Below, piece after piece: positions 3,865-45,360 of a stretch of DNA of 45,360 nt. A program made the translations under genes and the position numbers. A model generated the notes under the pieces. It saw nothing but the letters and a program-made list of their open reading frames with translations. It made no database searches and was not told the DNA's origin. The stretch is from ANME-2 cluster archaeon (GTDB lineage: Archaea > Halobacteriota > Methanosarcinia > Methanosarcinales > Methanocomedenaceae), in the NCBI GenBank assembly GCA_019429385.1, contig JAHYIS010000018.1, positions 1 through 45,360 of the forward strand, given 5' to 3'. How positions within the stretch are numbered: position 1 is the stretch's first letter; each line of letters begins with the position of its first letter.

Positions 3865-3882
3865 CCCATTCAGTTAGGCACA
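3865..3882 (+). repeat. Left terminal inverted repeat of the IS
   Basis: This 18-base sequence pairs with 5498-5515 in inverted orientation at 14 of 18 positions. The core TTAGGCACA (3874-3882) is identical in both ends and includes the transposase stop codon (TAA on the minus strand). Confidence 0.6.
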
Positions 3883-5421
3883 TAGTGCCTCTAATATTTC
3901 CCTTTGTCTCTTTGTTTGTTCAGTCACAATCTGAGTCCCATCTGGCAATATCATCACTTTGTTCTTCTCAATCTCAGTAATCAATGCCCCTACTGAATAT
4001 CTTTTTGACAACTCTGCATCCCTCATCATTTTCATCAATCTCATTCTCAAAATCAACGACAGGAAGCATATAAACAGATATCCCTTCATTGTAGTATCCT
4101 TTCTCACATTAGCAGGCATCACTTCAAGGTCATTTTTCATAATATCAAATCCCTTCTCAACAATATCCTTACTTCTGTACAGGGATAGACATTCTTCCCA
4201 TCCAAAATCGCCCTGGTAAAGAAGTATAAAACGCCCCATCCTGTTAACTCTTTGTGAGACTGAGTTCTTCTTTAATTCCACTTCAAACCGGTCCCCATTC
4301 ACTTTCCAGGTTATATATCGTGCATCTTTCTTTGCGACCTCTTTGAGAACATTAACAGGGTTCATCCAAGACCTGAGCCGCACATCTTTTAGACGCTCAG
4401 CTAGCTCGTACAATCTCTTGTAGAATGAATGTCGCTCGCTTTGCTCACGTTTTTGATCATAATATGCATAACCTTTCACACTGAATTCACCAACATTAAT
4501 GGTCACATGCATGACAAACAGAGGCTCATCCTGGTACATCACAAGATTATTTGGATTTAAAATCAATGAATGAACCTCAGACATCGTTTTTTTGACACTT
4601 TTTAACGTGGTCGAAGGTGGCATTATGAATGAGAGTCCACTGTTTATCATTGCCTCAAGATTCGGAGTCGAGAAAAAACCTCTGTTTATTATCATGGTGT
4701 AATCCTGAATTCCACAGGATTGGAGTTTCTTGATAGTGTTTTTTAAAGTTGTGACAACAACAATGCTTCCGGGATACAAGTCGTACATGATCGGTATTTC
4801 TTGTTCCTTATCGACTACCAGTGACATATTTATTTGTGGCAGATCAAGACCATCCCGATTATAACCCCATTCGAGATGCTTCATCATTTGCGAGTATGAT
4901 GATATTGATGTGATATCATAAACAAGTGTGCTGGCTGTGGATATCTTCTGAGCAAGGTGATTTGAGAAATCGATATGGGCGGTGCTATTGCCAATCAGGT
5001 CAAAGAGATTTGATATTGATTGCGAAGACAGGGGAAGGTCTGGATGTGTTTCGGATAGAAGCGTACCTTCATACCAGCTTTTGATGTGTGATGAAGCAAG
5101 TGGTTTGATCAGATAGTTCATGGCAATTGTTAAAGTGGTCCAGACGTGCTGCTGGGGCAGTATTTTTTGAAGTATGTTTTCAAGGTCAAGGTCATTGATA
5201 ATCTTGAGGAGGGGAAGGAATTCACCATATGAAAGGACTTTTTTTGGTGTGGAGATTAAAGGGGTTGTCTGTGATCTGATTTTGAGGGGGGTACCGTTAA
5301 CGTTTTTGCCTAGATATTTGCTTTTTTGCTTTACGGTTTTTGTTTCTGGGTCGTAGTATGGGGTGATCTCGTAGAGATATTCCTGGCCTTTTATTTTCTT
5401 GATGCGTGTAAATGATTTCAT
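3874..5421 (-). CDS. IS1634-family DDE transposase, probable second-Asp substitution
   Basis: This 515-residue, full-length-looking protein has the IS1634/IS4-type layout. An N-terminal beta-rich region ('YLGKNVNG') comes first. The first catalytic Asp is expected in 'LVYDITSISSYS'. The second Asp is expected in a DRGF-type motif, and the acidic residue lies in 'YRSKDIVEKGFDIMK' (Y-(2)-R-(3)-E-like). At the second position the sequence reads 'IINRGFFS', so Asn replaces the expected Asp, a single-base change (GAC to AAC). If correct, the enzyme is catalytically impaired even though the reading frame is intact. A TATA-like element at 5444-5452 lies about 27 nt from the ATG, so transcription may be leaderless. 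It would move the element by cut-and-paste if active. Confidence 0.88.
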   Translation of the reverse strand: MKSFTRIKKIKGQEYLYEITPYYDPETKTVKQKSKYLGKNVNGTPLKIRSQTTPLISTPKKVLSYGEFLPLLKIINDLDLENILQKILPQQHVWTTLTIAMNYLIKPLASSHIKSWYEGTLLSETHPDLPLSSQSISNLFDLIGNSTAHIDFSNHLAQKISTASTLVYDITSISSYSQMMKHLEWGYNRDGLDLPQINMSLVVDKEQEIPIMYDLYPGSIVVVTTLKNTIKKLQSCGIQDYTMIINRGFFSTPNLEAMINSGLSFIMPPSTTLKSVKKTMSEVHSLILNPNNLVMYQDEPLFVMHVTINVGEFSVKGYAYYDQKREQSERHSFYKRLYELAERLKDVRLRSWMNPVNVLKEVAKKDARYITWKVNGDRFEVELKKNSVSQRVNRMGRFILLYQGDFGWEECLSLYRSKDIVEKGFDIMKNDLEVMPANVRKDTTMKGYLFICFLSLILRMRLMKMMRDAELSKRYSVGALITEIEKNKVMILPDGTQIVTEQTKRQREILEALCA

Positions 5422-5638: not shown

Positions 5639-8600
5639 TCACTTGATTTTAACATTTTGGTAAAACAATTTACTGTGCACGTCTGCCAGTTTATTTTTCT
5701 GAGATTCCTCTTTAAGCGTTTTCTCAATCCGGTCTTTTTCCAGTTCCAGGGTCTTGACCTGTTTATCTCTCTTTTCAAGTTCCCTGTTCAGATTAACTAT
5801 TGTCACCTGCAACCTGTGAATGCTTTCAAGTTCACCCTTTTCATTCAGTGCTTTTTTCTTCAGGTCAGCAATTTCTTCCTGTTGTAGTTTGAGTTTACGG
5901 GCATGTGCTTCCATTTCCTTCTTGAACGTATTGATCTGCTGTTGCTTTTGAGTTACTTCCAGCACATCTTTTTCAACTTTATCCCGCAGTTTATTCTGTT
6001 CAGGAACGATGAGGTTGAGTTCTTTTCGCTCGTTCTCAAGCTTTGTCTTGACCTCTTGCAGTTTATTTCGCTGCTGTTCCATTTCGCTGAGTTCGGTTTC
6101 ATATTTTGATTTGACCTCATCGAGGGAAAGACACGTGAGTTCCATTTCCCTGGCACCCAGTCTTTCTTCCAAATCTTCAAGTTCTTTGCGTTTTTGCTCC
6201 AGGTCTTTAAAGTTGGAATTATATTTTTGCCTGAGTTCTTTTAATTCTTTTTCTTTTTTAAGCAACTGGTTGTATTCATTATCTTTTTCATAGATGACTT
6301 TGGAAATGTCCTGTTGTTTTTTGACAAGGTCGTTATATCTTGAATCTATCTGTTCAGCGTGAGATTCTATGTATCGTTGCTTTTCCAGAACATCAGAATA
6401 TTCCAGGTCAATATTCTCTTTTAGATTCTGGACATATTCATGCTTTGATTTCATGTCCCCATAGTCAGATTCAATCTTTGACTTTATACCAGAAATGCCG
6501 GTTTCTTTATCGGTAATCTCTGCTTTAGCGATCTTAATCTCTTCCTCAGAAGATGCAACCTCACTTTTAAGCGATTCGAGTTCCAGACGTTTTGCCTCAA
6601 GTTCCTTAAGCTGTTCATCAAGTGTTATTTGTTCTTCCAATGCCAGTTTTGACTGTTCCTGAATCTTCAGACGTCGAACTTCGATCTCGGCCAGGGATTT
6701 TGACTGTTCATCATTATCTGCTTCGATCTTAGCTTTTAAAGATTCAAATTCCTGCTTCTTTTCAGTAAGTTGGGCAAATTCGTCCTCTTTTTCTGACATT
6801 TCAGACTTGAGAGCTTTAACTTCGGTAATTCTGGAATTTATTTTTTCTTTCAAAGATGCAATTTCGGAGCGTTTGTTCTTTAAGGAAAAGATTTGTTCAT
6901 CCAGTTTGTCCTGCATTTCCTGTGCTTGTGTTGTCCGTTCCTGAAGTTCAGATTGCCGTGCTTCAAATTCAGCCATTGATTTTTGGAGGGCAGCATTTTC
7001 AGATTCAAAACGAGCTTTTGCACTCTCAAGTTCCTGCTGCTTCGTAGTAATCTCGGCAGACTCTTCTTCTACCCGTTCCTTTTCGGATTCAAGGGTTTTG
7101 ACCTCGGCAATCCTGGATTCAATCTCTTCTTTTAAGGTTGCAAGTTCGGCGCGTTTGGATTGAAGTAAATCAAATTCTATATCCAGTTCACTTTTGTCTT
7201 CCTCTGCCAGCTTTCTTCTTTCCTGAAGTTCCAGGTGTTGTGCTTCAAATTCCGCAGTTGATTTTTTAAGGTCAGCATTTTCAGATTCAAACGTAGCTTT
7301 GGCAGTTTCAAGTTCCTGTTGCTTTTTCGTTATTTCGGTGGACTCTTCCTCTACCCGTTCCTTTTCGGATTCAAGGGTTTTGACCTCGGCAATCCTGGAT
7401 TCAATCTCTTCTTTTAAGGTTGCAAGTTCGGCGCGCTTGGATTGAAGTAAATCAAATTCTATATCCAGTTCACTTTTGTCTTCCTCTGCCAGCTTTCTTC
7501 TTTCCTGAAGTTCCAGGTGCTGTGCTTCAAATTCCGCAGTTGATTTTTGAAGGTCAGCATTTTCAGATTCAAACGTAGCTTTGGCAGTTTCAAGTTCCTG
7601 TTGCTTTTTCGTTATTTCGGCAGACTCTTCCTCTCCCCGTTCCTTTTCGGATTCAAGGGTCTTGACCTCGGCAATCCTGGATTCAATCTCTTCTTTTAAA
7701 GTTGCAAGTTCGGCGCGTTTGGATTGAAAACTCTCAAGTTCTTTATCCAGTTTCACTTGCATCTCATGTGCTTGTTTTGTTCTTTCCTGGAGTTCAGACT
7801 GCTTTGCTTCAATATTTACCGTTGATTTTTTAAGGTCAGCATTTTCAGATTCAAACCGAGCTTTCGCAGTTTCAAGTTCCTGTTGCTTTTTAGTTATTTC
7901 GGCAGACTCTCCCTCTACCCTTTCCTTTTCGGACTCAAGGGTCTTGACCTCGGTAATTCTGGATTCAACTTCTTCTTTCAAAGCTGATAGTTCAGTGCGT
8001 TTGGATTCAAGGATCTGAAGTTCTGCATCCAGTTTTTCCTTCTCATCCTCTGCCAGCCTTGTTTTTTCCTGCAGTTCCTGACGTTGTGCTGTTATTTCTG
8101 TCCAGGAATTTTGAATTTCACTACTGTTTGCAACAATTTTCTCGTTTTCAATCTCAAGTTCCTGTTTTTTATTATTGACCCGGATATATTCCTCTTCTAA
8201 TATGGTTTTCTCAGATTCAAGGACCGAAATTTCTGCTATTCGAGATTCGATTTCAGCTTTAAGGTCAGCAAGTTCAGTGCGTTTTGATTGAAGTGAATCA
8301 AGTTCTTTGTCCAGTTTTTTCTTTTTTTCTTTTGCTTGTTCAGTCTTTTCCTGAAGATCAATATGCTGTCTTTCCATCTCAGCCCATGATTTTTGTATTT
8401 CGCTACTATCGGAAATGATTTTTTCTTTTTCAGCGTCAAGCTCCTGTTTTTTCCTGAAAATCTCGGCAGATTCTGTCTCGATTTTTAACGTTTGTGATTC
8501 AAGCGACCTGTTAACTTCAGATTCAGTAGCTTTAACTTCTTCTCTCAGGGATGCCAGTTCATTGCGTCTAACTTCAAGTGATATAAGGTCTTCATCCAGT

Positions 8601-11461
8601 TTTTCCTTCTCTTCCTTTACCAATCCTGCTTTTTCCTGGAGTTCAGACAGTTGTGCCTCAATATCTGCCCTGGATTTATTTAATTCATCACTTTCTCTCT
8701 TAATTTCGCCCTTCGCAGCTTCCAGTTCCGTCTGTTTTTTATCAATTTCGGCAGATTCTGTATTCACCTTTTCCTTCCTGGATTTCAGGGATTCAAATTC
8801 TGCCTCATTTACTATTACTTCTTCTTTTAGAGCTGCCAGGTCAGAGCGTCTTTCTTCTAATATGCTAAGTTCTTTATCCAGTTTGTCGGTCTCTTCTTTT
8901 GCTAGTCTTGTCTTTTCCTCGAGTTCCGACTGTTGTGCTTCATTCTCAATCTTCGATTTCTCTATTTGGTCCCTATCGGCCTCTAATTTTACCTTTGCAG
9001 CATCCAGTTCCTTTTGCATTTCACTGATCTTATCAGATTCAGCCTCGATCCTCTTTTTCTCAGCTTCCAGGGATTTAACTTCTGTTTCAGAAATTTTCAA
9101 TTCTTCTTTCAGTGATACAAGCTTAGCACGTTTATCCTCAAGGTTCTTGAAGTGTTCATCCAGTTTATCTTCTTCTTCTTTTCCCTGTTTTGCATTTTCC
9201 TGGAGTTTTTTTCTCAGTGTTTCAATCTGGACCCTTGAATTTTCCAATTCTCCACTTTCGATTTCAATCCTGGCTTTAGCAGCATCCAGTTCTTGTTGTT
9301 TTTGCTTCAGTTCAGCTAATTCTGATTCGATATTCAGTTCAGTTTCATGTGTTTTTTTCTCACGTTCCTGGAACTTGAGCGCTCTTGCATTGATATCACC
9401 TTCAAGCACTTCCAGTTCGGAGCGTTTCTGATACGCTTCATTGATCAGATTATCCAATCGGGACTTTTCTTTTTCAACATATGCAGACTGTTCTGACATC
9501 TGCGATTTTTTCTTTTCAAGTTCGGTTTTGACATTTTCAATCTGTACCTGCTGGGATTCTATACTGGATTTCAGTTTATCCAGTTCTTCTTTCTTAGTAC
9601 TGAGGTCACGATTGTCTGCATCAACCTGGTTTTTCAGGTTTCGCAGTTCCTGCTGCTTATCCTTGATTTTGCCAATTTCACTTTCAAGTTCGAATCCATT
9701 TTTCCTGACTTCTTCCTGCCGATTTTGCAATTCAGTCAGTCTTGTTTTATTCTCAATGGTTAAACGGTCAATTTCTTCTTTAGCAAGATTCAGTTTATCA
9801 AGTTCCCCGTCTAACTTCGCCTTCTTTTTTTCAAAATTCTTTGTATCGGAATCCAGTTTCGATTCAGTTTTATTAAGCGCCTTCAATTCTTTTTCATATT
9901 TTTCCTTCTTTTCCCTGGCTTCTTTTCCTTCTTTTTCGAACCTGTCTTTTTCCTTTTCAACCTGTCTTCGTTCTTTTTCAAGTTCGAGCTTTTCCCTTTG
10001 TATTTCATCGAACTCGCGCTGTTTTTTTGCTTTAAGTGTCTCAATTTCATGTTGTTTTTCTGACAGATATTTAGTCTCTTTATCAAGGTTATGTTTCGAT
10101 TCTGTGAGTATTTTTTTTTGAGTATCAATTTCAGTATACTCTATTGCCAATTTTGACTTTTCTTCATCCAGTTTCTCTTTGTTAACCTCAATATCATTGA
10201 ACTCAGATTCCAGTTCTGACTTTATTCGCTCCAGTTCACGAACATCAGCAGTTTTAGACTTAATCGCAGCTTTAGTATTTTCCAGTTCAGAGATCTTGTT
10301 TGAATTTTCAGATTGCAGTTCATCCAGTTTCTGGCGTTCCGTTTCAGCTACCTTTGACCTTTCCAGAATTTCCAATCGCCTGGCTTCTATTTCTTCCTGT
10401 GCCTTTTTATTTTCACGTTTCCAGGTTTCAAGTTCAGACTTTAGTTTTTCAGCGTCCTGTTTTTTTACCTGCAATTCCTGATAGTCATCATCCAAATCCT
10501 GCTTTGGCGGTTGTGGAATTTTCTTCTGTGCCGGACTATCTGCCGGTGTTATCTTCTGTGTCGTATCTTCTTTCTTAGATGCAATTTCAGCTTTAACATC
10601 CTGCTTTTTATCACGGGGCTTTTTCTTTAAAGAACCGAAAAAAGAATCTAATTCATCAAAATTTTCATATCCTTCACGGACCGGGACCAGGTCATCATCT
10701 AAATTATCTGGCTGAACCGGGCCTGTTTTCTTGTCAGCTACTGAAAAATTGAGTTCATCTTCACCAGCATTTGTAGGAGTAGTAACCTCTAACTTTGTTT
10801 CAGGGCTGGATTTAGATACCGTTGACGGAGCTTTCTTGGAACCTGCAGGGGATTTCTTTAACGTATTGAAAAAAGAACCCAATTCATCAAAATTTTCATA
10901 TCCTTCTGGAACAGGAACCAGGTCTTCACTAACATCAGTTGATTTTTTTTGGACACTGGAATCCGGTTTTTTATCTGGTTTAGATTCTTTATTCTCAGAG
11001 ATAACATCCTTGGAACCAGGAGGCGTTTTTTTTAGTGACGTAAAAAATGAATGAAGTTCTTCTGTAGCATCGTCTTCAGGTTTTACAACCGTATGTTCGA
11101 TTGTTTGCTTCACCTTCCCGGATACCCGGGGAGTTTTTTTGACGGCAACTTCCTGTTCCCATTCCCCATCATAAGGTGGAAACATGTCATCGTTGACATA
11201 TTTCCCCTTTAATTTCTGAATAAAAAGATACGAGATACCAAGATGGTCATTATATTGAGGGTCTTTTGATGACTGTACCTGAACAGTTTCAGAAATCTTA
11301 AGAACTGAAGCTTTTATAGATTCATCAATCCATTTCATTCGTACATATCTATCCAACAGTCCTTCAAGTTCAGTTTTGCTGAACTGTTGTATCAGATAAT
11401 GTACCCAGCGAGTCAGTACCCTCTTCGACCCTACATCTTGTACCTCATTGTCACTGTTCAT
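5639..11461 (-). CDS. Giant repetitive coiled-coil protein with FlaD/E-like N-terminal domain
   Basis: This protein has 1940 residues. Residues about 15-90 ('RWVHYLIQQFSKTELEGLLD', then 'KWIDESIKASVL' and 'NDHLGISYLFIQKLKGKY') match the pattern I know from archaellar accessory proteins FlaD/FlaE; this is recognition by eye. Residues about 130-285 are a charged linker with three copies of a short motif, SFFxxLKK (at about 138, 196 and 273), the last two preceded by GYENFDEL. From about 330 to 1930 it is almost uninterrupted Glu/Lys/Leu-rich coiled coil. No Walker A or ABC signature is present, so it is not SMC or Rad50. Ten units of 94 residues lie at about 767-1707. The gene follows the MamK-like actin on the same strand with a 25-nt gap, so the two are probably co-transcribed. 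A scaffold or cytoskeletal linker role is inferred. No signal peptide was seen, so it should be cytoplasmic. Confidence 0.9.
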   Translation of the reverse strand: MNSDNEVQDVGSKRVLTRWVHYLIQQFSKTELEGLLDRYVRMKWIDESIKASVLKISETVQVQSSKDPQYNDHLGISYLFIQKLKGKYVNDDMFPPYDGEWEQEVAVKKTPRVSGKVKQTIEHTVVKPEDDATEELHSFFTSLKKTPPGSKDVISENKESKPDKKPDSSVQKKSTDVSEDLVPVPEGYENFDELGSFFNTLKKSPAGSKKAPSTVSKSSPETKLEVTTPTNAGEDELNFSVADKKTGPVQPDNLDDDLVPVREGYENFDELDSFFGSLKKKPRDKKQDVKAEIASKKEDTTQKITPADSPAQKKIPQPPKQDLDDDYQELQVKKQDAEKLKSELETWKRENKKAQEEIEARRLEILERSKVAETERQKLDELQSENSNKISELENTKAAIKSKTADVRELERIKSELESEFNDIEVNKEKLDEEKSKLAIEYTEIDTQKKILTESKHNLDKETKYLSEKQHEIETLKAKKQREFDEIQREKLELEKERRQVEKEKDRFEKEGKEAREKKEKYEKELKALNKTESKLDSDTKNFEKKKAKLDGELDKLNLAKEEIDRLTIENKTRLTELQNRQEEVRKNGFELESEIGKIKDKQQELRNLKNQVDADNRDLSTKKEELDKLKSSIESQQVQIENVKTELEKKKSQMSEQSAYVEKEKSRLDNLINEAYQKRSELEVLEGDINARALKFQEREKKTHETELNIESELAELKQKQQELDAAKARIEIESGELENSRVQIETLRKKLQENAKQGKEEEDKLDEHFKNLEDKRAKLVSLKEELKISETEVKSLEAEKKRIEAESDKISEMQKELDAAKVKLEADRDQIEKSKIENEAQQSELEEKTRLAKEETDKLDKELSILEERRSDLAALKEEVIVNEAEFESLKSRKEKVNTESAEIDKKQTELEAAKGEIKRESDELNKSRADIEAQLSELQEKAGLVKEEKEKLDEDLISLEVRRNELASLREEVKATESEVNRSLESQTLKIETESAEIFRKKQELDAEKEKIISDSSEIQKSWAEMERQHIDLQEKTEQAKEKKKKLDKELDSLQSKRTELADLKAEIESRIAEISVLESEKTILEEEYIRVNNKKQELEIENEKIVANSSEIQNSWTEITAQRQELQEKTRLAEDEKEKLDAELQILESKRTELSALKEEVESRITEVKTLESEKERVEGESAEITKKQQELETAKARFESENADLKKSTVNIEAKQSELQERTKQAHEMQVKLDKELESFQSKRAELATLKEEIESRIAEVKTLESEKERGEEESAEITKKQQELETAKATFESENADLQKSTAEFEAQHLELQERRKLAEEDKSELDIEFDLLQSKRAELATLKEEIESRIAEVKTLESEKERVEEESTEITKKQQELETAKATFESENADLKKSTAEFEAQHLELQERRKLAEEDKSELDIEFDLLQSKRAELATLKEEIESRIAEVKTLESEKERVEEESAEITTKQQELESAKARFESENAALQKSMAEFEARQSELQERTTQAQEMQDKLDEQIFSLKNKRSEIASLKEKINSRITEVKALKSEMSEKEDEFAQLTEKKQEFESLKAKIEADNDEQSKSLAEIEVRRLKIQEQSKLALEEQITLDEQLKELEAKRLELESLKSEVASSEEEIKIAKAEITDKETGISGIKSKIESDYGDMKSKHEYVQNLKENIDLEYSDVLEKQRYIESHAEQIDSRYNDLVKKQQDISKVIYEKDNEYNQLLKKEKELKELRQKYNSNFKDLEQKRKELEDLEERLGAREMELTCLSLDEVKSKYETELSEMEQQRNKLQEVKTKLENERKELNLIVPEQNKLRDKVEKDVLEVTQKQQQINTFKKEMEAHARKLKLQQEEIADLKKKALNEKGELESIHRLQVTIVNLNRELEKRDKQVKTLELEKDRIEKTLKEESQKNKLADVHSKLFYQNVKIK
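6341..9163 (-). repeat. Ten tandem 282-bp (94-residue) repeats inside the coiled-coil gene
   Basis: Units begin with an LDxxLxxLxxKRxEL-type sequence. The first starts near residue 767 and the tenth near 1614. That is nine periods in 847 residues, with one unit of 95. At DNA level the copies starting at 7089, 7371, 7653 and 7935 are exactly 282 bp apart and nearly identical over long stretches. Outer units are more diverged. This indicates recent expansion or homogenisation of the centre of the array. 94 is a multiple of neither 7 nor 11. Confidence 0.9.
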
Positions 11462-11486
11462 GCCTAAAGATTAATATTAGTGACAT

Positions 11487-12563
11487 TTATATTAGTTTTT
11501 TCCAGTAATCTTCTGGCATATCCATGGCAAGTTTCAGGGCACCTTTTGACCCTGCAGCAAATGGATCTTCCTTTATGACGCTTACTTTTCCTCCACCAAC
11601 GATGGATAGTTCATTTTCGATATATTCATCTATGTTCTTTATGTTACTTCCACCACCGGAAATAATGATATTGTTCCTCAGTTCATCCCTGAAATCCGGG
11701 TCATATGTGGCAATAAGACTGGTTATACCCTCAATAATTGGAGGAATAATTGATTCACATGCATCTTTCATTTCCTGCACAATTGACAGTCTGATCGTGG
11801 ATGAATCTACAGGCACATCTACTTCACAGTCCTTTTCGGGCTCACCTACAAAACCGAACTCTTCTTTCCATCTTTTTGCCATCTCTTTTGTTACCATAGC
11901 ATTGGTATAGTCAGATGTTATCGATTTTATCAAAGCATCATCAATGTAATCCCCGGCTTTACCAAAACTGGTCATATCCTCGGGTTCAGGAAGGGTGCCC
12001 CGCACTCTGCAAAGGTCAGTAGTTCCGGCACCTATATCAACGATCATCACATTTTCAAGTAATCCCAATTCATACGCTACACAGAACGGGTCACTTGCAA
12101 CCATAACTCCTGTGAAGAAATCTTTTGTGATCTCTGTTAATATCTTTTTACTTAGTACACTTGCTTTTGCCGGGACTCCCAAAATTGCATAGGTTTCTGC
12201 TTTTTCAGGTAAGTTCAGGTTTTCAAGACAATACTCAAGCAAACCTTTTGCCGCTGCAATATCTTCCTTATTTGTCTTCAGGACACCACATTCAATTGGC
12301 CTGTGCATATTGAGGGCAACCCGGTGCTTTAAGGCCTCGCTTCCATAGAGTACTTCCTTTTTTAAGAATTTTGAAGATATGGCGTCTTTAGGGTATCCGA
12401 CGACATTCTGTTCCGAAATGCTTTTACCATTGCTGGTCGTTATTGCAATCTTGGATGTACCGAAATCCACACCGATATATATTTTGTCAACAGTCTTTTC
12501 AACTGTCTTCTCTTCAGTCTTTTCTTTACTCTCGGCTTTATTACTTTTTTTGTCACTTGCCAA
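11487..12563 (-). CDS. MamK-like bacterial-type actin, filament-forming ATPase
   Basis: This 358-residue protein belongs to the actin/HSP70 fold. Phosphate loop 1 is 'GVDFGTSKIAI' (31-41), phosphate loop 2 'IVDIGAGTTDLC' (174-185), and the adenosine motif 'IIISGGGSNIK' (299-309). It resembles MamK from magnetotactic bacteria along its length rather than MreB, ParM or crenactin. Shared blocks are 'VVGYPKDAI', 'LGVPAKAS', 'ASDPFCVAYELGLLENVMIV', 'GTLPEPED..FGKAGDYID', 'FGFVGEPEK', 'ACESIIPPIIEGI' and a C-terminal 'GALKLAMDMPEDYWKKL'. A Lys/Glu-rich tail of about 27 residues precedes the fold. MamK filaments align magnetosome vesicles. No other magnetosome gene is visible here, so the archaeal role is unknown. 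It is the first gene of an operon with the giant coiled-coil protein. Confidence 0.88.
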   Translation of the reverse strand: MASDKKSNKAESKEKTEEKTVEKTVDKIYIGVDFGTSKIAITTSNGKSISEQNVVGYPKDAISSKFLKKEVLYGSEALKHRVALNMHRPIECGVLKTNKEDIAAAKGLLEYCLENLNLPEKAETYAILGVPAKASVLSKKILTEITKDFFTGVMVASDPFCVAYELGLLENVMIVDIGAGTTDLCRVRGTLPEPEDMTSFGKAGDYIDDALIKSITSDYTNAMVTKEMAKRWKEEFGFVGEPEKDCEVDVPVDSSTIRLSIVQEMKDACESIIPPIIEGITSLIATYDPDFRDELRNNIIISGGGSNIKNIDEYIENELSIVGGGKVSVIKEDPFAAGSKGALKLAMDMPEDYWKKLI

Positions 12564-38836: not shown

Positions 38837-41800
38837 TCATTCTTCTACTTCAAAGGTAACAGTCTGCAGACTACCCCATTTTCCACTGTTTTCCATAGCC
38901 CTTACATGCAAAGTATGAATCCCGGGTGCTATGTTTGTGGTGTTTATATTACCGAATAAATACACATGTTTTTCTCCAAAATGACCCCTATCAGGGTATA
39001 TAGCAATTCCGGTACCGGGTTCACCGTCTCTATCCAGGAATATTTCAGCATCAGCAATATTGCGGAAGGGACTTGCTACTGCTGTAGCATGTATACGGAC
39101 GCTTTGCCCACGTCTAACCTTTGGTGGTAATACCGTTATATCGCCCTTGATAAAGGGTGCTTCCAGTATTCCACTCCATAGCAGCAATATCACGAAACCT
39201 GTGAAAGCAAGAACTGTATACACTATCCACCACGGGATCATATGCTGTTCGGGTTCAATTGAGAACATGACCGCCTGCACTGGTCCCCAGTCATTATCAC
39301 GTTCCATGGCGTGTACATATATCACATATGTTCCGCGCTCCCAGCCTGTGGTATCAATGGTAAAGGTACCCTCTTCCACCTGTTCATCGAAAACGTCATC
39401 ATTTGGTCTTACCCGTATGCCGGTTCCTGATTGTCCCACTTCACCAATGAAGTATTCCATATTCCTTATGTACATTTTCCATCCGGATATGGCACTGAAA
39501 TTAACCACAATACGGTCACCGCTGCGTGCAATCTGGGGAGTGACCTTAATAGAACTTATCTGTGGAGTGGCCTCGAATACATTGATTACATGGAATTCGG
39601 TCCTGGATGAATGGCACTGACTGCAATCTTCCACTTCCCCGTGGGGTACGTCTGCAATACTGACAGCATCAAAGTCTGGCTTTACCAGTTGCACATGGCA
39701 TGATTTACATTCTCTCGGGAACAGGTAGTCTGCGGGATGGGTTTCGGGCTCGGTCCCATCTCCGTGACATGCCCAGCAGGCTTTGTCGATCTCATCAGTG
39801 AGTCTGGTCTTGTTGTTGGCATTCTCATTGAGGAGTGCATGACCTCCCAGCTGAGTGGATATAGCATCCACCGTGGCAATACCGAAATTCGCGCTCACAT
39901 CATGGCACAGGACGCAATCCGGTCCGCCGTCAACACCATCGTTAAGGGGCGGAACATGCAGGTTCTCAGGAGCGCCGCCTGTAAAGAATGTATGATTAAT
40001 CTGCAGCCAACTAACATTGTAACCGCCAATCTTCTCGTCGTTATCAATAAAATCTGCAAGGTTAGACAGTATTCTTACATTGGTCAGCATTACTGCATCA
40101 GCTTCAAATCCATGGAACACCTGCTCCACGTCTGCCCTGAATAATACTACATCTTCAACGGTATGCTGGTTGACAATAAGGTCTTCGTTATATTCTATCC
40201 TGTCACCTGCATCATACGTATCTTCTTCAATCTGTTGGCCATTGACTTCAAAGTTGATGAACGCGGTTTCGTCATGAATTTCCACATCTTTGGCAGTGAA
40301 ATTATAACCGTTAAATATCCACGATTTACTATGACCTTTTGAAATTACAATATTGCTCTCCTGTCTTGGGGTCAGGACTCTCTGGTTGATATCATCCTCT
40401 TCAAAGTCCAGGAGCAATTCTGTATAATATGTGTAGTCATCATCCTTATCGATTACAAGATACCTGTGGTGTTCACTGGTATAGTTGTCAACATGGCAGG
40501 CATAACATGATTCATCGACCCATTCTGAATGTATGCGCTTCAGTGTCCTGCCTTTTACCATTATCAGGTTTGTTCCTTCGTTGCCCCTGAATACTGCAGT
40601 GACATTGACCGATACGATGATGGATTTGATCTCATGGCCGTCTATATCCGTAAGTTCGTCGTGGAACACATAACTTTCGCCATTATGTATGAAACTTTCA
40701 TTGATCAGTTCTTCATCATGGAATAACTGGACATAAGCGGTTTCGCCATCGATTGAGATATCATTAAAGAATATCATGTACTTGTTGCCAATATTCCATT
40801 TCTCACCCATGAAAAGTGTGGCTTCCCGCTCGGTCTCTGACAGTGTGGTAACATTGTCGGTCGGGTCAGGTGCATTACCCCATTTTTCTCCGTTATCCTC
40901 ATCCAGGTGGCAGTAGATACAGCTGGACGAATTGATCAGCTCTTGCGTTGAACCGTAATGTGATACCAGTGCAACATCTGATTTCACGTCGTTGTCATTA
41001 TGGCTCTGTAAGCTGTTCTTGTGGCACACGTCACATCCGGCTGTGGTCTCTATATCCTCATCAATAGTCTCCACGTATCTGAAATGCTCATACACCATGG
41101 GTTCGCCGAAGATAGACTGGCTCACCGCATGGCAGCTGTTATTGTTGCAGTTCTTGGGTGCATTGTAATTTGCAGGATGTCCGGTGGGTTGGGCAGCATC
41201 TGTACCATCGCCATCCCCGTGACAGGCCCAGCACCTCACATTGTTGGGATTGAGGGTAGTGGTGGCAATAGCTACCCGGTTGAGGTCGTAGTGTATATCA
41301 TTACGACTGTTCATGGCCGAGACATCCAGCCACTTTGGTGTGGGGGCTGCACCGCCTATATCGTGACAGGATACACAGTCCTTGCCTGCACCTCCGGTTA
41401 CTGCCTCGTCATGGAAATTTACTGGTGTCTGGTTGCCTGCATGGCAGTAGTAACAATCGGTATTATTAGTGTAGACTGAATGGTTGAAGTTGATGATAGT
41501 GACACGCGGGTCCATTGGGCTGCCCCATGTTGTATTATTGGCAATGGTGTAATGGCAGTAGGTGCAGTTCTGCGTCTTATTCAGCACTCCGGATAGCAGG
41601 TTCTGGGTTGTGCCGTAATGTGATACCCTGTCTGAAATATTGGCATAGCTACTTACGGTCGTATTCACGCTGTTGTTATGGCATACGATACATGATGCAT
41701 TGGTAGAATTGGTCTCGACATCCAGGGCTCCCGGTCTGTGCTCTGCGACCGGGGGTGCTGAGAAGAAGGATATTGTGGTGCCGTGACAGTCCTCGCAAAT

Positions 41801-44800
41801 CTTTGGTGTATATACATCTTTCTTTGGATGGGCCGGTGGCGCTGTTCCTGTCCAGTGGCAGGCATAGCATGCCAGGTTGGTATCATTGGAGGTATTGGCG
41901 CTGTTCAGGTTCTCATGGATTCCTGCTTCCAGTGCAGATACATTTACGGGAGGTGTTTTTCCCGTGGGGTCATTGCCTTCATTATGACACCCTATACAAT
42001 TGGTAGGGTCCCCACCTGAGACATTATGAAGCTCCACCGGATATGCGGGGTCGGTAGAGTTGTTCGCCTGGGTATGGCACTGGATACAGCCATCAAGGGT
42101 ATATCCAGGGCTGTGGGTGGGTGGCGGGGCATAGAATGGGGCTGAGTTGTTATATGCGACGTGGCAGTCCGTACAGTTTACCTTGCTGCCGTTGGTCCAT
42201 CCTGCCCATGAAGGTTGCTGTACTTCACCCATCGGCCACTGGGCATAGTGGAAAATACCGGTACCTGTAACGTTGTGGCATGAGGTACAGTTGACCACCA
42301 GTGCGCTGGACAGGTTATCATGGATGAGTATATCGATATGGTTCACATGTGCTGCTTTATAGGTAAATGACCCTGCAGGGGAATGGCATTCATAACACGT
42401 GCCATTGACACCGTTGATATTATTTCGCTGGAACGTGGAATTATGCAGTGCACCTGTGGGTGCTGTACTTACATTATGGCATAATTCGCAGGTATTTGCG
42501 CTGATATTGGTAGTATTTGCTTTGTTGGCGGGTGCATCCGGATAATGGGTCTGGACAAGTCCGGGCAGATTATATTTTGTAACATTCGTCTGGTTCGTAT
42601 GACACTTAACACAGGTGTTTGCCAGTGGTTTTTCAAGGGAAATATTATGGAAATCAGTTACTTGCAGCCCGGTGGATGAGTGACAACTTGTACAGTTCCC
42701 GGTCCTGTTATGGGCTGACACGGGAGGAGCATTGCCCCAGGTGATGTTAATACCGGTGAGCATGTGACAGTTCACACAATTACTGGTGTTGATAAGACTG
42801 GTATTGGTCCCATAATGAGAAATGTTACTTGCATCACTGTCTGTGGTCGACAGAGGGCTGTATGCATTAAGGCTGTTCCTGTGACATGCTTCACAGTCCA
42901 CGGTTGTGGATATATTTGCCGCTGGTCTGTGATTGGATACAATGCGGTTGCCAGGCATGTTTAGGGTTACATTATCCACATGACATTCCGTACAGTTGCG
43001 TGCCGGTACCTGTCCCGGTAACATGGTAGCAGTGTCATTGTGACATTCCTGGCAATCAAGGTTCGATATTACATTAATACCATCACTGCTGTTCGCATTC
43101 CTGTGCATACTAAGGTTACTGATATCAATATGCGTGGTTGCCCCCGGACTACCGATATCATGACAAAGAGTGCAGTTTGTCAGGTCACCACTGTAGACAT
43201 CATGTGCCATTTCTGGTGTGTCTGTGGGTACTGAAGATGTGTTCTGATGACAGTATTTACAGGATGCATCAGTATAATCGGAAAGGGAATGATTGAAATA
43301 GTCGGTACTGGTACCGTTCCAGCTGGTACCGTTCAAGATCTCTGGGGGCATTGGAACCAGATATTTGGTGACATTATTATAATAAACAGAGCTTGAATCA
43401 TTATAGTGGCAAGCTGAACATATCATACCTGTGAAGTCCACAGGTTCAATTCTCAGAACTTCCAGATTACCTAGAGCATCTGGAGTGTGTTTGGTATCGT
43501 TATGGCAGTAAATACAGCCGGTTAGATTGTCTATCCAGTAATTATCCCATCTCTGGCCGCTGTTGACATTGCTGTGGGATAGGGGACCAAGGGTGGGTGC
43601 ACCAAACAACCCGGCTCCCTGGTGGCAGGTGGTACAATTCACTGCACTGACATTGGATGTGGTGAAATTTGTGCCATCTTGCTGCAGGTATTTGACGCCG
43701 TGAATGTCCTGCTTAACGGCCAAATGGCATTCGGTACAGTTGACCGAACCGTTGTGTGGTTCTTTTGCCCCTGTTACCACAGGATATCCAAGGTTGTCAT
43801 GACAACCGGTACACAGAGTCGTATTCTCAAGCACAAGCACGGGTTTGGTGAGACTATCATTATGCATCCAGCCACCGTTATGGCACGATGCATTGGTACA
43901 GTTCGGTGATGTAGTACCCCAGGCACCGGCATTCAGACTATGTTCGGGAACACTTGCATTGAATGTAGGATTCACCATTATGCCGGTACTGTTGAACGCT
44001 GACCCTGCCTGGTGGCAGTAACTGCAATTCACGCCACCCGACCAGGTACGAAGGTCTGTTCTCTTTTTGCCATAGTGGGCGATAAGGTAACTATCATTGG
44101 TCCGGTCGGCCGGATCTGCTCCTGCTGGCCCGATGCTCAGTAATTTCATCTCGGTGAGGTTATGGCATACCATACAGGACGACATGTTATCGGTGCTGTT
44201 CCCTGCTTTGAGCTCGGCACCGCTATAGAAATGCTCAACTACTGCAGGAATGATACCTGCTCCAGAAAGGTTAGCAGGTATGTTAGTACCTACGTGGCAT
44301 TCTTCACAGGTATAGGGTTCAATGCCGTTAAAGTCACCGAGTCGGTCAGCGTGGGACGTTAGCGTGGAAGGATAGGTGCCGTTGTCGATGTGACAGGCCC
44401 AGCAGATCTTGTTGGTGTCATTGACCGTACCATACGGATTATTGATTTCACTTGAATTCTGGATATTCTGGTGAATTGATAGTGAATCGTTCATTACCGT
44501 GAAATTGATCTTGGGGGCTGAACCACCCAGGTCGTGGCAGCTGATGCAGTCTGCACCGTAACTGCCAACTGCTACTCTATGCACGAATTCTTTCGTAGTG
44601 GGTGAACCAGATAACAGGCTGCCGTGACAGGGCTGGCAGGTGGTGTCATTGAAGGTACTACCCATGAACGAGTGGTCGTACCATGACAGGCCAGACCCAT
44701 CCCAGGCGGTGGTGTTCCCGATGTTGTTATTTGTGATCGTTGGTGGTACCGGAGTCCACTGGGTGCCGTTATAGTTACCGGCACCCTGTTCGTGACAGCC

Positions 44801-45360
44801 ACCGCACCAGATATCATCGCTGGTAAGTGTTGTGTTCAGTGCCTGGCCATTACGGATACTCTCGATAGTCCCGATAGCAGTAATACTGTGCTTGGTATCG
44901 TTGTGACAGTATTCGCAGGCTTCGTTGGTGGTGTTCCAGTAAACAGTGCTATTCCACCGGCTGCCGTTATTGAGGTTATCGCTATGTGCGAACATGCTGC
45001 TGGTATTGGCAACGAGCGGCCGGGTGGGAGTGAAGTTGGAAAGGGTGGCGTTGTTGCTATGACAGCGGACACAGTTAACTGCGCTGATATTGGATGTGCT
45101 GTATGTATCATCCGTTTGCAGGTATTTTACACCATGAATGTCCTGCTTGACCGATAAGTGGCATTCGGTACAGTTGACCGAACCGTTGTGTTGTTCTTTT
45201 GCACCAGTAGTGACAGGATAGCTCACCCCATCGTGACAACCGGTACACAGAGTCGTATTCTCAAGCACAAGCACGGGTTTGGTGAGACTATCATTATGCA
45301 TCCAGCCACCGTTATGGCACGATGCATTGGTACAGTTCGGTGATGTAGTACCCCAGGCAC
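38837..45360 (-). CDS. Giant S-layer multiheme c-type cytochrome, N-terminus cut by window end
   Basis: At least 2174 residues are visible. An ATG at 45301 is internal: the frame continues to 45360 with another haem motif. I count 47 haem motifs, 44 CxxCH and three CX4CH ('CTNASCH' twice, 'CNNNSCH'). Numbering from Met45301, two S-layer-like domains of the Methanosarcina type lie at about 1493-1590 and 1650-1748 ('SVNVTAVFRGNEGTN', 'RADVEQVFHGFEADA'), with haem CYACH between them. Beta-sandwich domains occur at about 1911-2014 and 2053-2154, either side of a transmembrane helix near 2022-2042. Many Asn-x-Thr/Ser sites suggest N-glycosylation. It probably carries electrons through or along the S-layer, as proposed for ANME-2. 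Partners are not visible. Confidence 0.93.
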   Translation of the reverse strand, partial: AWGTTSPNCTNASCHNGGWMHNDSLTKPVLVLENTTLCTGCHDGVSYPVTTGAKEQHNGSVNCTECHLSVKQDIHGVKYLQTDDTYSTSNISAVNCVRCHSNNATLSNFTPTRPLVANTSSMFAHSDNLNNGSRWNSTVYWNTTNEACEYCHNDTKHSITAIGTIESIRNGQALNTTLTSDDIWCGGCHEQGAGNYNGTQWTPVPPTITNNNIGNTTAWDGSGLSWYDHSFMGSTFNDTTCQPCHGSLLSGSPTTKEFVHRVAVGSYGADCISCHDLGGSAPKINFTVMNDSLSIHQNIQNSSEINNPYGTVNDTNKICWACHIDNGTYPSTLTSHADRLGDFNGIEPYTCEECHVGTNIPANLSGAGIIPAVVEHFYSGAELKAGNSTDNMSSCMVCHNLTEMKLLSIGPAGADPADRTNDSYLIAHYGKKRTDLRTWSGGVNCSYCHQAGSAFNSTGIMVNPTFNASVPEHSLNAGAWGTTSPNCTNASCHNGGWMHNDSLTKPVLVLENTTLCTGCHDNLGYPVVTGAKEPHNGSVNCTECHLAVKQDIHGVKYLQQDGTNFTTSNVSAVNCTTCHQGAGLFGAPTLGPLSHSNVNSGQRWDNYWIDNLTGCIYCHNDTKHTPDALGNLEVLRIEPVDFTGMICSACHYNDSSSVYYNNVTKYLVPMPPEILNGTSWNGTSTDYFNHSLSDYTDASCKYCHQNTSSVPTDTPEMAHDVYSGDLTNCTLCHDIGSPGATTHIDISNLSMHRNANSSDGINVISNLDCQECHNDTATMLPGQVPARNCTECHVDNVTLNMPGNRIVSNHRPAANISTTVDCEACHRNSLNAYSPLSTTDSDASNISHYGTNTSLINTSNCVNCHMLTGINITWGNAPPVSAHNRTGNCTSCHSSTGLQVTDFHNISLEKPLANTCVKCHTNQTNVTKYNLPGLVQTHYPDAPANKANTTNISANTCELCHNVSTAPTGALHNSTFQRNNINGVNGTCYECHSPAGSFTYKAAHVNHIDILIHDNLSSALVVNCTSCHNVTGTGIFHYAQWPMGEVQQPSWAGWTNGSKVNCTDCHVAYNNSAPFYAPPPTHSPGYTLDGCIQCHTQANNSTDPAYPVELHNVSGGDPTNCIGCHNEGNDPTGKTPPVNVSALEAGIHENLNSANTSNDTNLACYACHWTGTAPPAHPKKDVYTPKICEDCHGTTISFFSAPPVAEHRPGALDVETNSTNASCIVCHNNSVNTTVSSYANISDRVSHYGTTQNLLSGVLNKTQNCTYCHYTIANNTTWGSPMDPRVTIINFNHSVYTNNTDCYYCHAGNQTPVNFHDEAVTGGAGKDCVSCHDIGGAAPTPKWLDVSAMNSRNDIHYDLNRVAIATTTLNPNNVRCWACHGDGDGTDAAQPTGHPANYNAPKNCNNNSCHAVSQSIFGEPMVYEHFRYVETIDEDIETTAGCDVCHKNSLQSHNDNDVKSDVALVSHYGSTQELINSSSCIYCHLDEDNGEKWGNAPDPTDNVTTLSETEREATLFMGEKWNIGNKYMIFFNDISIDGETAYVQLFHDEELINESFIHNGESYVFHDELTDIDGHEIKSIIVSVNVTAVFRGNEGTNLIMVKGRTLKRIHSEWVDESCYACHVDNYTSEHHRYLVIDKDDDYTYYTELLLDFEEDDINQRVLTPRQESNIVISKGHSKSWIFNGYNFTAKDVEIHDETAFINFEVNGQQIEEDTYDAGDRIEYNEDLIVNQHTVEDVVLFRADVEQVFHGFEADAVMLTNVRILSNLADFIDNDEKIGGYNVSWLQINHTFFTGGAPENLHVPPLNDGVDGGPDCVLCHDVSANFGIATVDAISTQLGGHALLNENANNKTRLTDEIDKACWACHGDGTEPETHPADYLFPRECKSCHVQLVKPDFDAVSIADVPHGEVEDCSQCHSSRTEFHVINVFEATPQISSIKVTPQIARSGDRIVVNFSAISGWKMYIRNMEYFIGEVGQSGTGIRVRPNDDVFDEQVEEGTFTIDTTGWERGTYVIYVHAMERDNDWGPVQAVMFSIEPEQHMIPWWIVYTVLAFTGFVILLLWSGILEAPFIKGDITVLPPKVRRGQSVRIHATAVASPFRNIADAEIFLDRDGEPGTGIAIYPDRGHFGEKHVYLFGNINTTNIAPGIHTLHVRAMENSGKWGSLQTVTFEVEE
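43800..45360 (-). repeat. 1434-bp internal repeat in the giant cytochrome gene
   Basis: Bases 43800-43926 and 45234-45360 are identical over 127 bp, and the match is cut off by the window end. The offset is 1434 bp, which is 478 codons. The 478-residue unit starting at Met45301 carries 12 haem motifs, and the next unit begins with the same 'MHNDSLTKPVLVLENTTLCT' at 43867. Similarity continues more loosely into the next about 100 residues. This is an in-frame duplication with recent homogenisation. Confidence 0.85.

Follow-up and report, generated by a model that had tools for sequence, protein, structure and literature searches.

The window, by which we mean the whole stretch of 45,360 nucleotides that was analysed, carries two adjacent genes on its minus strand, a MamK-type actin (11487..12563, 358 aa, TTG start) and a giant coiled-coil partner (5639..11461, 1940 aa, ATG start). 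Both open reading frames, their common strand and the gap of 25 nt between them (11462..11486, minus strand) were confirmed as the original prediction had given them. The TTG start of the actin frame has a GGTTGTGAT stretch just 5' of it. The pair is flanked downstream by an IS1634-family transposase (3874-5421) and upstream by a divergent amino-acid symporter, so that the unit apparently consists of just two genes. The genome from which the window comes is a 2.4-Mb bin with a completeness of 100. At the far end of the window (38837-45301) lies a gene for a multihaem cytochrome of 2154 aa with S-layer and MtrC/MtrF-like domains, a combination of multihaem cytochrome and S-layer protein that is typical of ANME archaea.

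Sequence and predicted structure of the actin

The actin was predicted to resemble MamK along its length, and both profile and structure comparisons bore this out. Among the curated models, NCBIfam MamK (NF040964) gave the best score, 370.8 bits over residues 28-357, compared with 198 bits for BeeR, 68 bits for MreB and 40 bits (39.8) for salactin. The score is below NF040964's own cut-off of 400, which was exceeded in only 4 of the 238 genomes of the class Methanosarcinia, all of them from a Methanoperedens-like genus. The nearest solved chains were those of MamK (E 4e-72), followed by BeeR. An AlphaFold2 model, proposed as a check in the original prediction and built from 18 sequences, had a pLDDT of 88; its top match in the PDB was the MamK filament 5ljv, with a TM score of 0.97 on the target and a deviation of 1.3 Å over 325 columns.

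The ATP-site motifs are kept in the alignment, and the protein contains GVDFGTS, VASDPF, VDIGAGTTD and SGGGS. Two residues corresponding to D161 and E143 of MamK, the loss of which abolishes ATPase activity in actins (PMC5059902), deserve attention: the former is retained as D176, and the latter is replaced by Asp (D158, within VASDPF). All six of the actins from the same family carry Asp at this position, and Glu is found there in the actins of Methanoperedens, of an ANME-3-like lineage and of marine Group II. The substitution may slow hydrolysis in the actins of this family.

Architecture of the coiled-coil partner

The partner begins with an N-terminal FlaD/E (ArlD/E) head (11204..11437, minus strand, residues 9-86), a predicted small all-helical domain that matches Pfam Arch_fla_DE (PF04659) over the same residues with 38.8 bits against a cut-off of 21 and shares seven invariant columns with the aligned FlaD/E domains of the archaellum. 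The AlphaFold2 model of the head, made from two sequences, had a pLDDT of 73.5; a structure search of the PDB with this model returned no match at E < 5, and a profile search gave two weak matches only, both to tryptophanyl-tRNA synthetases at E 0.04. The head is followed by a low-complexity linker (10622..11071, minus strand) with three copies of the moderately amphipathic motif (F)DELxSFFxxLKKxP, at residues 131-145, 189-203 and 266-280. Three congeners have three to four copies and a fourth has variants of the motif, which was found in this genus only and in no other lineage; it is a candidate multivalent binding motif.

Beyond the linker extends a heptad rod (5882..10471, minus strand, residues 331-1860), and from residue 320 to the C-terminus of the protein there is a single proline (P1819). 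Simple arithmetic, at 0.1485 nm per residue, gives the rod of about 1500 residues a length of about 220 nm if it forms one continuous helix, which may not be the case. The Pfam scan of the partner returned Arch_fla_DE alone, with no SMC or Rad50 ATPase part, and the matches of SMC-type models were limited to the coiled-coil regions and lay far under their cut-offs, in agreement with the earlier description of a protein that has a FlaD/E-like head and lacks SMC ATPase parts.

Within the rod are exactly ten tandem 94-residue units, as had been counted originally (6530..9352, minus strand, residues 704-1644), each of about 14 nm as a coiled coil and starting at residues 704, 798, 892, 987, 1081, 1175, 1269, 1363, 1457 and 1551. 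Identity at lag 94 was 0.335; when whole heptads were shuffled 500 times, no lag between 60 and 149 exceeded 0.138. By the unit model, a congener's complete partner (L038, 1657 aa) has 7 units versus 10 in the window protein, and the alignment of the two, 77% identical, is interrupted by hardly anything but three gaps of exactly 94 residues. These three whole-unit gaps indicate that the length has changed between the two proteins by whole units, in steps of about 14 nm, and since the same protein is found complete with 7 units in another genome, the array is not the artefact of a single assembly.

Conservation of the gene pair in Methanosarcinia

The MamK model had matches in 71 of the 238 class genomes, 54 of them strong (E below 1e-40), in four lineages: the family of the window genome (f1), Methanoperedens (f4), an ANME-3-like lineage (g27) and a Methanolobus-like genus (g23), the last two being named here from their kinship. 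The original prediction had proposed to look for the pair in ANME-2 and Methanosarcinales genomes and had named an actin that never adjoins a coiled-coil gene as a refuting result; the reverse was observed, the two genes occurring together in ANME-like and other Methanosarcinales genomes. All 31 curated loci have a charged coiled-coil gene directly 3' of the actin and on the same strand, the gap being -4 to 46 nt; this count comes from mechanical gene calls at related and in many cases contig-limited loci and does not represent independent trials.

The partner varies in length from 190-214 aa in Methanoperedens up to 1940 aa in the window. Its FlaD/E head was detected at all 28 loci outside the Methanolobus-like genus (E 1e-31 or better). 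The Methanoperedens partners, of about 200 aa, have the head joined directly to the C-terminal end without a long rod, which identifies the two ends as the constant parts of the protein and the rod as a variable spacer. The partners of the Methanolobus-like genus lack the head and open with a conserved FTPNIYRKPV motif, and the actins of this genus have altered phosphate loops; a head and an intact ATPase are therefore not universal requirements. As for Methanoperedens genomes with two FlaD/E domains and no strong MamK-type actin, their frames of 186-535 aa appear to score like archaellum-type genes and are thus probably not orphan partners.

What all complete partners have in common is a C-terminal segment of about 80 residues surrounding an IHR motif (in the window, 5642..5881, minus strand, the last 80 residues), which is kept in all four lineages, also in partners without the head or without the rod. 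Models built with one lineage left out recovered it with E values between 1e-6 and 1e-14, and g27 with stronger ones, and the best unrelated or decoy matches had E 2e-4 or weaker with the bias filter off. A profile of the IHR end found only generic helical or coiled-coil chains in the PDB, at E 0.002 and weaker, so that the strength of this module comes from the left-out-lineage test. Over the 238 genomes, actin and IHR module were both present in 52 and both absent from 182, with two genomes having the actin only and two the IHR module only (Fisher 2e-47, a value uncorrected for kinship between genomes that share ancestry and are not independent). In the two actin-only genomes (G014 and G022), the partner is cut by the contig end; in the two IHR-only genomes (G024, with a protein of 239 aa, and G122), no actin was found.

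IHR modules also occur at a distance from the actin. Genomes of the Methanolobus-like genus encode a second IHR-ending coiled-coil protein of about 285 aa (L269-L272, L276 and L278), and ANME-3-like genomes have a frame of 82-83 aa that consists almost only of the module (L274:5168-5419 and L275:6675-6923).

Actin phylogeny and MamK-type actins outside the class

In a tree of 96 actins from Methanosarcinia, bacterial MamK, marine Group II archaea (Poseidoniales), salactin and MreB, the Methanosarcinia actins formed one clade with a support of 100/100, and the marine Group II actins formed another at 92/83. These two and bacterial MamK joined at 92/96, with salactin and MreB outside. The proposed placement of the actin in the MamK clade holds in part: it lies within the wider MamK-type group and outside the clade of bacterial MamK, which contains no archaea (97/81). 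By this tree, the archaeal clade is sister to bacterial (magnetosome) MamK and stands beside it, not within it. In a quick tree, the inner order of the archaeal clade followed family and genus, which fits a mainly vertical descent.

Marine Group II archaea often have two MamK-type paralogs per genome (L196-L208 and L087-L104). One has a coiled-coil gene of about 390-455 aa after it at 12 of 12 loci in the tree set (one of them contig-cut); the other lacks such a follower, and before it lies the gene for a protein that contains a CPRCGG zinc-ribbon-like motif. The partners of marine Group II are without a FlaD/E head, and their match to the IHR end is not convincing (E 2e-4 and weaker); the pairs are thus alike in layout, and homology of the partners is only putative. 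Locus L101, on a contig with the title Deltaproteobacteria AH-558-G13, has an actin and coiled-coil pair of the marine Group II kind and is probably mislabelled or contaminant DNA.

The bacterial MamK genes examined have neighbours that differ from the archaeal pair. A group of MamK-type actins from Nitrospirota (L239 and L241-L247), which forms a clade apart from the L230-L237 type, has conserved neighbours of its own, namely, an upstream protein of about 350 aa with a GVYEDNLRI-like motif and a downstream protein of about 370-460 aa with a response-regulator-like start.

Discussion

The occurrence of the same gene pair in three other related archaeal lineages leads us to read it as very probably an internal cytoskeleton that has not been described before. 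We propose that the pair is a two-gene archaeal cytoskeletal module, in which an actin filament is combined with a two-ended, length-quantised tether, and we put the probability of this reading at about one half. The partner is best read as a tether on account of its two conserved ends and the variable, quantised spacer between them. The module could work as follows: (i) the actin, judging by its motifs and its modelled fold, would form MamK-like double-stranded filaments and hydrolyse ATP; (ii) the IHR module would bind the actin filament, as its distribution suggests; (iii) the FlaD/E head, a member of the archaellum switch-complex family, would attach to a cargo or else to an assembly at the membrane or the pole; and (iv) the rod would set the spacing between the two, which ranges from nearly zero in Methanoperedens up to about 220 nm in the window protein, and would evolve by the gain or loss of whole 94-residue units. 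The likely job of the pair would then be to fix or transport some object at a defined distance from an actin cable, as MamK does together with its adaptors, though apparently not within a magnetosome gene cluster. The assignment of the two ends follows from their distribution: only the IHR end accompanies the actin throughout, which makes it the likelier actin-binding end, and the head is replaced in the Methanolobus-like genus, which makes it the likelier cargo or anchor end. The IHR end could instead be an oligomerisation module. Points that weigh against the proposed module are the headless partners, the altered actin phosphate loops and the second IHR protein of the Methanolobus-like genus, together with the Asp at the E143 position in the window's own family. 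That the pair organises an internal compartment, the cell pole or a membrane system, as the original prediction inferred, is likewise a hypothesis.

Several other functions can be considered for the pair. Since the head is homologous to FlaD/E of the archaellum, it might dock on the motor ring or the polar cap, with actin and rod placing the machinery for motility and chemosensing at the cell pole. The view that ArlCDE surrounds the motor as a ring and perhaps touches the polar cap, a sheet seen in Euryarchaeota (PMC8978795), counts toward such a polar scaffold, as does the presence of an archaellum-type FlaD/E gene in many Methanoperedens genomes as well. We nevertheless regard this explanation as doubtful, since the genome of the window, with its completeness of 100, has neither a match to archaellin (PF01917) nor any other FlaD/E domain, so that docking on an archaellum is not supported in this organism, and since the Methanolobus-like genus possesses archaellum-type FlaD/E genes and yet has a partner without the head. 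Equally hard to favor is a rod that assembles by itself into an intermediate-filament-like scaffold for shape or stiffness, with the actin only guiding its deposition. In favor of such a scaffold are the length of the heptad rod, the regularity of its 94-residue repeat and the scarcity of prolines in it, but the Methanoperedens partners, at about 200 aa, lack the long rod and the pair is still kept, so that self-assembly of the rod is not the common function.

The gene neighborhood in the Methanolobus-like genus points to yet another role, the holding or segregation of polyphosphate bodies by actin and tether. There the pair follows genes for a ferredoxin-like protein, a CHAD protein, polyphosphate kinase and exopolyphosphatase (e.g., L060:7395-15731), and by coordinates about 3 kb separate ppk from the actin in 21 of the 26 actin-bearing genomes of the genus. 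Nevertheless, PPK1 is absent from the window genome and from every listed genome of its genus, the occurrence of PPK1 in Methanoperedens does not match that of the actin, and four genomes of the Methanolobus-like genus itself have the actin without PPK1. This distribution speaks against polyphosphate as a general cargo and makes it an unlikely explanation of the pair; given a genus without PPK1, polyphosphate is at most a cargo of the Methanolobus-like genus, as a specialisation of which it stands. Least probable, in our estimation, is a ParM- or SMC-like mover of chromosome or plasmid: the actin does adjoin a long coiled coil that resembles SMC arms, but the Pfam scan of the partner revealed no SMC ATPase heads or DNA-binding domain, the actin is of MamK and not of ParM type, and no plasmid genes were found among the scanned genes of the window.

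The reading of the pair as a filament with a tether would, if true, show MamK-type actins to have no obligatory link to magnetosomes, and would inform the origin of the magnetosome skeleton. A broader and more tentative proposition, which we consider possible but less probable than the module itself, is that MamK-type actins are an old family, the archaeal branch of which works without magnetosomes, its filament being paired with a molecular ruler of 14-nm steps that keeps some membrane, polar or storage structure a fixed distance away in methane-cycling archaea. ANME archaea and Methanoperedens consume methane on a global scale, but very little is known of how their cells are organised; with a conserved actin and its own tether, a defined cytoskeletal system would become available for study in them. 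As the pair also occurs in the Methanolobus-like genus, and Methanolobus is cultivated, the idea is directly testable. The pair is not described in the full-text literature that was searched, a body that leaves out most subscription papers and preprints, and its novelty is therefore provisional.

In bacteria, MamK filaments position magnetosomes, and MamK works with dedicated partner or adaptor proteins. The window actin resembles MamK (NF040964; PDB 5ljv, 5ljw, and 5jyg) in its fold, in an alignment over the full length, in the ATP-site motifs, in being matched best by it among both curated models and structures, and in being a partnered actin. It differs in its score (371 bits, compared with 403-530 for those bacterial MamK genes that pass the cut-off), in belonging to a separate archaeal clade, in having Asp for Glu143 and in its other partner; no magnetosome genes were recognised by name among the scanned genes of the window. 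Salactin, an archaeal actin of Haloarchaea, has been reported to have its closest relationship with MamK (PMC10746226). The window actin reaches 39.8 bits of the cut-off of 400 of the salactin model (NF053533) and falls outside the salactin clade, and salactin was not found in the window genome. BeeR (NF053558; PDB 8r2n) is the second-best relative among both curated models and solved structures, at 198 bits against a cut-off of 530. ArlD and ArlE (PF04659) share the head domain, but the window protein carries it at the N-terminus of a tether encoded next to an actin gene, and the genome has no archaellin. The Mad coiled-coil proteins of Desulfovibrio magneticus RS-1, together with MamK and Mad28, are likewise a case of actins and extended coiled coils that organise an organelle chain (PMC12748827). 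They differ in that there are several partners instead of one and in that a FlaD/E head or IHR end was not seen in the passages considered here, and they are likened here by description and not by homology. By analogy, MamK with its adaptors and the actin and coiled-coil network of RS-1 are the closest to the archaeal pair in their way of working.
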